Origin: Cadophora sp. MPI-SDFR-AT-0126
Taxonomy: Eukaryota > Ascomycota > Leotiomycetes > Helotiales > Ploettnerulaceae
NCBI GenBank assembly: GCA_020747065.1
Contig: JAGMVK010000016.1
Span: forward strand, 248,001-312,000
DNA: 64,000 bases
Direction: 5' to 3'
Part shown: positions 11,049-13,895 of the stretch, piece after piece
How the letters are laid out: the number at the start of each line of letters is the position of its first letter
Position numbering within the stretch: the stretch's first letter is position 1
Notes under the pieces: generated by a model
Told to the model about the DNA's origin: nothing
The model's input: the letters and a program-made list of their open reading frames with translations, nothing else
Databases searched by the model: none
Position numbers and translations under genes: made by a program

Positions 11049-11873
11049 AAAAGTCATGTTAATTCGCAACAAGCTGAGAGGGCATTGAACTCAGCAGAGA
11101 GGGCGGCGTCTTGCCAGGGGGTGTATGGAGTTCTGGTCGAGTGATGTTGTTATTATGACGTGCCCATTTTCGTCTGGGTGTTGCTTGGCTAGGGGTGTTT
11201 TTTAACGAGCGGGACGGAGCATCTTATCATCACGATCATGGATTTGCTTGTTACGTGTATTATAGATGGGCTGGCTAGGGACACGAGAGATGATGCAGAT
11301 AAAGATACCGTCTGCGTCTCGCGACACAGCATGAATGAACATTTGATAAGCACAGCTCTCCTGTGCTTCCTAGAAGTCTTTCCCTTACATCTTGGTTTTT
11401 TCTTTTTAAATGCTTGCTCGGAGTGACGTATTATATCACATCTTCGTTCTGTTTCATGAAGCTTCAGCAGTCATAATGATGATGGGGGCTTCTTTTGCCA
11501 ATGGGGTTGTCTCTGGCTGGTTGAGCTTTTGAGAATCTTGAGACTTGGTGCCTATGTAGTACTCAAGTCTTAGATGAGGAATGGCATCTGTACCCAAGGA
11601 AACAGATTAGGGGCTCTCAGCCAGCCTTCAATGCTCTGACACGCTTCTCTTATATATTCATCACATTCACCTGTTCGTAGATCATGTCGAAAACAGGGTT
11701 GAGATACATGCTACTGGAATCATTTCTTATGAGCCCGAGCCATGAGAAGATTGCTTCCTTATCTTTTCCCATGGTCACCAGCAATATTACAAATTTCTCC
11801 AGTCTCGGAATGACCCACATTGAAAGCTTTTCGAGCATATGTACCCAGCTAAGAACAGAGTCATACATTCAAC
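11049..11873. other. Intergenic region between PSY2 and tRNA-Arg
   Basis: This stretch holds the PSY2 3' UTR and the 5' flank of the tRNA gene. No supported coding region is seen on either strand; the frames present are short and lack family signatures. A TATATATTC stretch lies near 11650, too far from the tRNA to act as a usual Pol III TATA element. Confidence 0.45.
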
Positions 11874-11999
11874 GGCCGACTGGCCCAATGGCAAGGCGCT
11901 TGACTACGAATCAAGAGATTGCAGGTTGTAAGTTATCCTCAAGGAATGTTATTCCAGAAATATATCCTAACATTCATTCAGCGATCCCTGCGTCGGTCA
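11874..11999 (+). tRNA. tRNA-Arg (ACG), split in the T-loop by a spliceosomal-type intron
   Basis: Two pieces, 11874-11927 and 11982-11999, join into a complete 72-base tRNA. The acceptor stem GGCCGAC pairs with GTCGGTC (one G-U). The D-arm is GCC...GGC. The anticodon arm is CTTGA, loop CTACGAA, TCAAG, giving anticodon ACG. The T-stem GCAGG pairs with CCTGC around loop TTCGATC, and the discriminator is A. The D-arm and loop context match tRNA-Arg(ACG) of other fungi. The A box is intact (TGGCCCAATGG, 11880-11890). The B box is cut after GGTT, between positions 55 and 56, by 54 bases that begin GTAAGT, carry CTAAC and end CAG. No intron is present at the canonical 37/38 site. A T5 run at 12008-12012 fits a Pol III terminator. 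It may be a working gene spliced by the spliceosome or a disrupted copy. Confidence 0.85.
11928..11981 (+). other. 54-base spliceosomal-type intron inside tRNA-Arg
   Basis: The insert starts with the consensus donor GTAAGT (11928-11933), has a CTAAC branch site (11967-11971) with the branch A 11 bases before the end, and ends with the acceptor CAG (11979-11981). Its length and signals match the protein-gene introns of this window, for example in PSY2 and SEC4. It does not resemble a tRNA-endonuclease intron: it is in the T-loop rather than the anticodon loop. Removing exactly these bases restores a canonical TTCGATC T-loop. Splicing itself is inferred. Confidence 0.75.
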
Positions 12000-12007
12000 G
12001 AAAATCA

Positions 12008-12012
12008 TTTTT
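12008..12012 (+). terminator. Probable Pol III terminator of tRNA-Arg
   Basis: A run of five T lies 9 bases after the tRNA 3' end, followed by further T4 runs at about 12016 and 12022. T runs of this length and position are the normal Pol III stop signal for tRNA genes. Confidence 0.6.
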
Positions 12013-12600
12013 AACTTTTGCTTTTGTCCCTGACTAAGGCCGAGTCATTTCAAGGGGCCAAGGGCTCTCTCTGATGAGAGGATTTCTCGAAGCCCGGAAG
12101 AATTCTCTTCCTTCCGTTTGAAGTGGATTTGGGTGGATTCTGCTAAGCGAAGATCTGGCTTAGCACATATCAAATGGATATCAGCAAAGTAGACTTTTTA
12201 ATTCTCGGTCGGCACGAAGGTCGGAAAAAAGAATGTTTAAAGCACGGTTGGATATTAGCAAAGGAAGGGGTGCATAAGAAAAAAGGAAGCACAGCCTCAG
12301 CCTCGCATGTAGCCTCGTAAGCCACATATTTTTAGCGTCTCGGGAGCGCTAAAATGACCCGCCCTGCTGGCCTCGTGTGAATCGTGTTCACAATCTATCT
12401 CAGGGAACGCGACTGCGCCGACGACGACATCTCCCTCCACTTCCTGTATAAGCTTCAATCGGCTCTGGGCCATGTGTACTTAGTTGTCGGTTCCCCGGAT
12501 CATGTGCGAGGTGCTTTCAATGTGGGAAATCGATCATTTCTTGCGCATTTCATAGTATCACTCGCCCACTAAGTCGCTCATTTGTTTGCATTTTGCAGCC
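12013..12600. other. Intergenic region between tRNA-Arg and ALG5
   Basis: This region holds the tRNA 3' flank and the ALG5 promoter and leader. TTTTGCAG just before the ALG5 ATG (about 12590-12599) looks like a splice acceptor, so a 5' UTR intron is possible. No coding region is supported. Confidence 0.4.
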
Positions 12601-13895
12601 ATGGAAGCCCTTCTTCAGCTTCCGCAGAAGCTGCTCTGGATTATCTACGAGAACTTCGAAAAGACCCCTTTGCCAATTCTGCTCATTTTAGCAATTACAA
12701 CAGCTGTCACTGTATTGACTTGCGTATGTTCCCCGCTACCTACTGCAACAACCTTGGTACTGACCTAGTGCTTAGGCATATGCCGCAGTATTTATTCTTG
12801 CACCTACCCCGCGACCTCCATTTTCTTCAGAGAAATCGTACATAACTACTGCCCCGGATGGCTCTACGACAGACCCAAAGCCGCTACCATGCTGGCACGA
12901 CGAATGGCTGTCCCATCGGAAGGAAGCAGAGAACATAAAGGATTTCTCAGAGAAGCACACTGGAGATATCGAAGAAGCAGAACTAGAAATGAGCGTGGTG
13001 ATTCCCGCATACAATGAGGAAGAGCGCTTGGAGATCATGTTGGAGGAAGCAGTACCATTTCTAGATGCCGAATATGGACGCACACCAAAGGCTAAGGACC
13101 CTTCCAAAGGTGACGCGAGCGGCATGGGGGGCTACGAGATCCTACTTGTGGATGATGGAAGTAAAGACAGGACTGTGGAGGTTGCATTGGCATTTTCAAG
13201 GAAACACAAGTTACATGATATCTTGAGGATATGCAAACTAAAGGAGAATAGAGGGAAGGGAGGTGCTGTCACACATGGTTTCAGACATGTGAGAGGTGCT
13301 TTTGCGGTATTTGCGGATGCGGATGGAGCATCTACTTTTGCAGACCTGGCGAAGCTGGTGGAGGGATGCAAGGCCGTAGCTGATCAGCCGAACCGTGCTG
13401 TTGCCGTAGGAAGCAGGTCACATCTCGTGGGCAGTGAAGCAGTTGTCAAGGTAGGAAACTCTGAATCGGTTCTCAGTATACTATTACTGACTCATATAGC
13501 GCTCTGCTATTCGAAATGTGCTCATGCACTCTTTCCATGCTCTGCTCAAAATCCTCACACCCCCCGCCACATCTCGAATTCGTGATACTCAATGCGGCTT
13601 CAAACTATTTTCTCGAGCCGCTCTGCCTCATATAGTCCCTTACATGCATGCCGAAGGCTGGATCTTCGACGTCGAAATGTTGATGCTGGCTGAAAGCGCA
13701 CCACCGGGGATCATTATGGACAGAAAAGGGGAGCAGATTGGTACCACTCCTGGCATCAGGGTCGCAGAGGTTCAGATCGGCTGGAAGGAAGTTGGTGGGA
13801 GCAAGCTGAATGTCATTTGGGATAGTTTGGGAATGGCGTGGGGGCTTGCCTTGCTGAGGGCAAGTTGGATGGCGGGTGTGTATAGAAGGCGGTAG
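12601..13895 (+). CDS. ALG5: ALG5, dolichyl-phosphate beta-glucosyltransferase
   Basis: The enzyme transfers glucose from UDP-glucose to dolichyl phosphate at the ER membrane, making the donor for the last glucoses of the N-glycan precursor. Exons 12601-12723, 12776-13450 and 13500-13895 give 397 residues. A signal-anchor helix is visible at about residues 20-52 (LPILLILAITTAVTVLTC and on). The GT2 domain follows: MSVVIPAYNEEERLE, then LLVDDGSKDRT, NRGKGGAV, and FADADGAS with the metal-binding DAD. Conserved IRDTQCGFKLFSR and EGWIFDVEML follow. Both introns have CTGAC branch sites. Length and motif order are normal for the family. Confidence 0.93.

Follow-up and report, generated by a model that had tools for sequence, protein, structure and literature searches.

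Candidate spliceosomal introns at many sites in the nuclear tRNA genes of a Cadophora species

We identified at least 18 introns of the mRNA type in at least 16 tRNA genes of Cadophora sp. MPI-SDFR-AT-0126; the genome survey, which was incomplete, located at least 63 tRNA genes in all. Nuclear tRNA introns in eukaryotes are usually credited to the tRNA endonuclease alone and mostly occupy one site. Here, introns of the type handled by the other splicing system occupy 12 different tRNA positions, in stems as well as in loops, in 16 of the 63 located genes. Very probably these tRNA genes work: RNA polymerase III (Pol III) would transcribe them, and the spliceosome would splice their precursors. 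Their upstream elements, compensatory stem pairs and restored cloverleaves suggest, as far as sequence can tell, that the genes are maintained in working order.

The interrupted tRNA-Arg(ACG) gene

A tRNA-Arg(ACG) gene lies at 11874-11999 on the forward strand of the window, the 64,000-nucleotide stretch analysed here, which belongs to contig C8. Exon 1 (tRNA positions 1-55; 11874..11927, + strand) and exon 2 (positions 56-73; 11982..11999, + strand) were recognised by sequence reading, DNA search and ARAGORN, and exon 1 by the pair count as well; between them stands an mRNA-type intron of 54 nt (11928..11981, + strand). The first-pass annotation had claimed that removal of exactly these 54 bases leaves a cloverleaf, and this holds: the acceptor, anticodon and T stems then have all 17 of their pairs. 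It had also read spliceosomal signals in the insert, and its reading agrees with ours for the 5' splice site GTAAGT (11928..11933, + strand), the branch-site motif CTAAC (11967..11971, + strand), which places its branch A 11 nt from the 3' end of the intron, and the 3' splice site CAG (11979..11981, + strand). The insertion falls between T55 and C56, as it had placed it, and not at 37/38, and the junction slides by 0 bases. Unspliced, the DNA receives no ARAGORN call and the gene scores 21.1 bits against RF00005, under the cut-off of 29, whereas the spliced sequence is called as tRNA-Arg(acg).

With the spliced gene as a DNA query, seven loci were recovered: two uninterrupted ACG genes (on C34 and C23), one ACG gene with a 20-nt intron at 37/38 (C37), two uninterrupted TCG genes, the window gene itself and a tRNA-Arg(TCG) gene on C1. 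The check on other ACG genes that the first-pass annotation had proposed thus shows the same insert to be absent from them, and since ACG genes without it exist, the window copy is dispensable for decoding. The window exons match each of the two uninterrupted ACG genes at 69 of 72 positions (96% identity); the three differences from L009 and the three from L010 all keep pairing, and the acceptor stem is distinct from those of the paralogs. A chance cloverleaf or chance intron is ruled out by this exon identity together with the 17 introns of similar signals in 15 other tRNA genes. No match to a second copy of the window intron was found in the genome.

The A box region TGGCCCAATGG (11881..11891, + strand; sequence reading) is intact, and the intron splits the B box, the first part of which, GGTT, occupies 11924..11927 (+ strand; sequence reading). 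Upstream, CCAGCTAAGAA (11845..11855, + strand) is a weak match, by position weight matrix (PWM), to the consensus CCAAATAAGCA of this genome's tRNA genes, with a score of 8.96 vs a shuffled 95% threshold of 8.01. Downstream lie a T5 run resembling a Pol III terminator (12008..12012, + strand) and a T4 run (12016-12019). Because its B box is plainly split and its upstream element weak, the window copy may be poorly transcribed. Folding suggests a precursor whose T-stem can form around the intron, and since the exons can pair across the intron in this way, the T-stem may keep both splice sites close. For comparison, some 0.7 kb downstream of the tRNA gene a glycosyltransferase family 2 gene contains a 52-nt protein-gene intron, GTATGT...CTGAC...TAG (12724..12775, + strand; by eye), and the exon that follows this intron matches PF00535. 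A scan of the window for protein-intron motifs was rejected, as it gave 23 matches vs 34 in the reversed control, and for this reason a single protein-gene intron, read by eye, is cited.

Interrupted tRNA genes and their introns across the genome

The gene described by the first-pass annotation is one of at least 16. The 54-Mb genome (38 contigs) was searched by RF00005 matches, the spliced-gene DNA query, queries with the genome's own tRNAs, a tRNA box pattern and a laxer RF00005 search, and because only the best candidates were scored in these searches, the gene and intron counts are lower bounds. The 63 located genes comprise 48 RF00005 matches, five of which carry mRNA-type introns, 11 further interrupted genes and four uninterrupted ones (on C37, C27, C19 and C21); the remaining 43 RF00005 matches were judged to be without mRNA-type introns from ARAGORN calls and by eye. 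Besides the window gene, 14 interrupted genes were discovered by tRNA homology or the tRNA model, one by the tRNA box pattern and none by splice signals.

Intron positions are given in standard tRNA numbering, set by hand; 11 of the 18 junctions are unslidable and the other seven slide by one or two bases, and the intron boundaries are fixed because the tRNA sequence sets them. From the 5' end of the tRNA, introns interrupt Ile-AAT on C13 (5/6), Ile-AAT on C1 and on C18 and Arg-TCT on C13 (all 6/7), and Thr-AGT on C4 (15/16). Ser-GCT on C33 holds three (15/16, 28/29 and 42/43) in addition to an ordinary 37/38 intron. Further along are Met-CAT on C18 (46/47), Ala-AGC on C12 (50/51), Gly-GCC on C11 and on C23 (53/54), the window gene Arg-ACG on C8 and Arg-TCG on C1 (55/56; the latter intron is 50 nt long and different from that of the window), Ala-AGC on C34 (58/59), Pro-TGG on C7 and on C3 (59/60), and Pro-TGG on C34 (61/62).

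All 18 introns begin with GT and end with AG, and each contains a CTRAY motif that places the branch A 9-17 nt ahead of the intron's 3' end. The first six bases are GTAAGT in seven, GTGAGT in three, GTATGT in two, GTACGT in two, and GTGCGT, GTTAGT, GTGAGA and GTAAGA in one each. Seventeen of the 18 are 50-60 nt long; the exception, of 116 nt, is the T-loop intron of the C3 tRNA-Pro(TGG) gene (L124, C3:320010-320380), which has grown by a GA microsatellite and lies between exons identical to those of the C7 copy.

Ordinary tRNA introns of eukaryotes sit at a fixed 37/38 site, are removed by endonuclease and ligase, and have no GT-AG ends or branch motif. Such introns co-occur in 10 of the 16 interrupted genes and differ from the mRNA-type ones in both site and signals, none of the 18 mRNA-type introns being at 37/38. 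Inserts outside 37/38 that lack GT-AG and branch signals were not found among the counted genes. We nonetheless considered ectopic introns of the endonuclease type, with a bulge-helix-bulge structure and only a secondary GT-AG look, for which the red alga Cyanidioschyzon merolae provides a precedent: its nuclear tRNA genes carry endonuclease-type introns in the D-, anticodon- and T-loop, some of them several (PMC3978253). The likeness extends to nuclear tRNA genes interrupted at unusual sites, some several times, but those introns have the bulge-helix-bulge and are ascribed to the tRNA endonuclease, whereas the introns here bear spliceosomal signals and interrupt stems too. A strict bulge-helix-bulge (four central and 3+3 flanking pairs, one-base shifts allowed) is present in 0 of the 18, in what is a weak test, as it is also failed by all 10 ordinary 37/38 introns. 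With GT...AG and a branch motif in 18 of 18, an endonuclease-type origin appears exceedingly unlikely.

Beyond their splice signals the introns are unalike. Among 17 of them (the 116-nt one left out; 136 pairs), the mean similarity score is 5.73 vs 5.64 for shuffled sequences, which argues, as far as tested, against a burst of one recent element. An introner-like element, which would occur in many near-identical copies, was rejected for the window intron, of which the genome yielded no other match. Within the introns there are two T4 runs and no T5 run in 1,023 nt, a count without a usable control; T-run depletion as an adaptation to Pol III was set aside, with Fisher p = 1 for T4 and the protein-intron control unusable (23 vs 34).

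Several details bear on how the counts are to be read. A scan for the T-loop splice pattern gave seven matches, and by eye a tRNA surrounds only those of the window gene and the C1 Arg(TCG) gene. General tRNA patterns gave 17 matches (control 17) and 51 matches (control 76), so most are due to chance, being no more numerous than in the controls; what they newly provided was Pro on C34, with an mRNA-type intron, and Tyr on C21, without one. C12:2869785 was found only at E 0.012, in the laxer RF00005 search. Judged by their exons, L060, which ARAGORN calls Phe, is a Lys gene, and L014, which it calls His, is the Arg(ACG) gene interrupted at 37/38; the isotype of L061, called Asp, is ambiguous. 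L119 (C27), counted as uninterrupted, is a slightly degenerate Ser copy. Two loci were not counted: L128 (C4:1054042), a tRNA-Gly 5' fragment that lies roughly 300 bases from a complete tRNA-Gly(CCC) gene and has no visible 3' half, and L133 (C7:1453260-1453460), a tRNA-like sequence of unclear isotype whose anticodon arm is odd. Twelve tRNA sequences used as queries returned no matches, an empty outcome that carries no weight. In the incomplete survey, tRNA genes for Phe, Asn, Glu and His went unrecognised, as did any clear Asp gene, which reflects either a limit of the tools or families that are also interrupted.

Structure, paralogs and transcription signals

With the introns removed, all 16 genes were called by ARAGORN as tRNAs of the right isotype. 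With the introns left in, 12 were not called and four were called with wrong ends or a wrong intron, and since none of the 16 is called correctly unspliced, such genes may be hidden in other fungal genomes. In the spliced genes, the acceptor, anticodon and T stems have 270 of their 272 pairs formed (the D stem was not counted), and the two unformed pairs (Met, Thr) are likewise absent in the intron-free paralogs compared. When each gene was set against one paralog (L009 for the window gene, L005 for Arg-TCG), 26 pairs of the acceptor, anticodon and T stems differed, with the rows for Pro on C7 and C3 representing one shared change. Of these pairs, 22 are changed on both sides and paired, four are changed on one side and paired, and none is broken.

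It could be argued that these are dead copies, tRNA genes inactivated by recent intron gain whose decay is yet to come. Paralogs that are intron-free or have a 37/38 intron only are present for all ten isoacceptor families concerned, so no interrupted gene is proved essential; by eye, the introns cut the B box (52-62) in eight of the 16 genes and the A box in two, 10 in all. High exon identity to paralogs, which reaches 81 of 81 mature positions in the Ser-GCT gene with its four introns, would by itself also be expected from recent gains. However, recent gain does not sit easily with the absence of broken pairs among the 26 changed ones, or with the Ala copy on C34, which has better pairing than the intron-free paralog L062.

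Copies that share an insertion site point the same way. At 53/54, the Gly genes on C11 and C23 have identical exons (71/71) around introns that match at 32 of 52 positions vs 50% when shuffled; at 6/7, the Ile genes on C1 and C18 have identical exons (74/74) and introns matching at 39 of 60 vs 49%; and at 59/60, the Pro genes on C7 and C3 have identical exons (72/72) and introns matching at 29 of 116 vs 23%, all three intron figures including the shared splice signals. The Pro pair also shares a stem pair that is absent from two other Pro genes, although its 37/38 introns and downstream flanks are partly alike by eye, which suggests a younger duplication. In most comparisons, the 50-nt flanks are about as similar as shuffled sequence; the upstream flanks of Gly on C23 vs L064 (37/50) and of Ile on C13 vs C1 (35/50) depart from this most clearly, and as some flanks exceed shuffled similarity, those copies have not fully diverged. 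Three observations speak against recent gain: common sites hold diverged introns, none of the 16 genes has a newly broken pair, and the introns (17 of the 18 compared) are too unalike for a recent burst of a single element. Compensatory changes and identical exons around diverged introns are the mark that selection on the spliced product would leave.

Signals for transcription appear to be retained as well. A PWM for the upstream element was built from 41 tRNA genes lacking mRNA-type introns (47 distinct sequences minus four interrupted ones, and minus L009 and L014, whose ends or intron were miscalled). The element, CCAAATAAGCA, is strong, precedes the tRNA by a median of 42 nt and is likely a TATA-like Pol III element of this lineage. 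It exceeds the shuffled 95% level in 38 of the 41 training genes and in 13 of the 16 interrupted genes, which were not in the training set; Arg-TCG, Pro on C7 and Pro on C34 fall below the threshold. A T-run of at least four follows within about 40 nt in 16 of 16 genes (the sixteenth in a longer fetched stretch), a count made without comparison to random intergenic sequence. In the Gly genes, the bases at the intron edges nearly restore the B box, by eye.

These signals also bear on the idea that the tRNA-like exons belong to long non-coding Pol II transcripts, spliced in the usual way and never seen by Pol III. Such units would have splice signals of the Pol II-gene type, as found here, and could afford a cut B box. 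The idea is very unlikely in our view, as it leaves aside the ordinary tRNA upstream element, which is at distances seen in ordinary genes, and the nearby T-runs, while the feature that is conserved is tRNA structure. As for the two outcomes that the first-pass annotation had contemplated, a spliced gene or one killed by intron gain, intact cloverleaves in 16 of 16, the compensatory changes and the lack of newly broken pairs favour the former, with further backing from the upstream elements, the T-runs and the identical exons around diverged introns; the dead-copy reading is, we think, quite improbable.

A proposed processing route and related systems

For spliced, working genes we infer the following route and order of steps from sequence. 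Pol III would transcribe from the AAATAAG-type upstream element and the remaining A and B boxes and end at the T-run. The nuclear spliceosome would excise the introns, which are of the ordinary major type (GT-AG, CTRAY), from the tRNA precursors. Splicing would restore the acceptor, D, anticodon or T arm and should therefore precede RNase P, RNase Z and most modification. In genes that also have a 37/38 intron, the tRNA endonuclease pathway would act on the product of the spliceosome. If spliced, these genes imply a spliceosome that routinely handles short Pol III precursors, before end processing, and tolerates tRNA structure. We speculate further that the spliceosome might be a regular second tRNA-splicing machinery acting before the endonuclease, obligatory for isotypes without an uninterrupted gene. 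The unrecognised Phe, Asn, Glu, His and clear Asp genes would fit obligatory splicing, though in an incomplete survey, and we regard the proposal as possible but rather doubtful; were it true, translation capacity would be coupled to spliceosome activity.

Reverse splicing has been proposed as the origin of U6 introns. Because tRNA exons are highly constrained, insertion sites can be placed with nearly single-base precision, and tRNA genes could offer a clean setting for testing intron gain and reverse splicing into abundant RNAs.

Among the open-licence PMC papers listed by our searches, none describes nuclear tRNA genes with mRNA-type introns. Fungal U6 snRNA genes with mRNA-type introns are known (Tani and Ohshima 1989 and Canzler et al. 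2016, as cited in PMC5832005), U3 snoRNA genes have such introns as well, and according to that article, in 2017 no small structured RNAs besides U3 and U6 were known to carry introns often. The tRNA genes described here resemble fungal U6 and U3 in that short GT-AG introns with branch motifs lie in genes for small structured RNAs, U6 being a Pol III product. They differ in their host, a tRNA: both its internal promoter and its processing rely on the structure that the introns interrupt. A second likeness is to lichen rDNA: according to PMC8527467, an intron of the spliceosomal type in a non-coding, non-Pol II transcript is removed by the spliceosome, and a lichen intron of this kind in Pol I rRNA is removed by yeast, which indicates that spliceosomes can act off Pol II. 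The lichen introns lie in Pol I rRNA, while those here lie in tRNA (Pol III).

A search with RF00026 gave four U6-like loci in this genome. By eye, L115 (C38:2221085) is a U6 gene with one mRNA-type intron, located upstream of TTGAAACG, and L118 (C11:486589) is a U6 gene with two. These two interrupted genes show that the genome encodes Pol III RNAs with mRNA-type introns, and their introns fit the known fungal U6 introns. Of the other two loci, L117 (C38:2220452) looks degenerate and L116 is a U6 copy without an intron.
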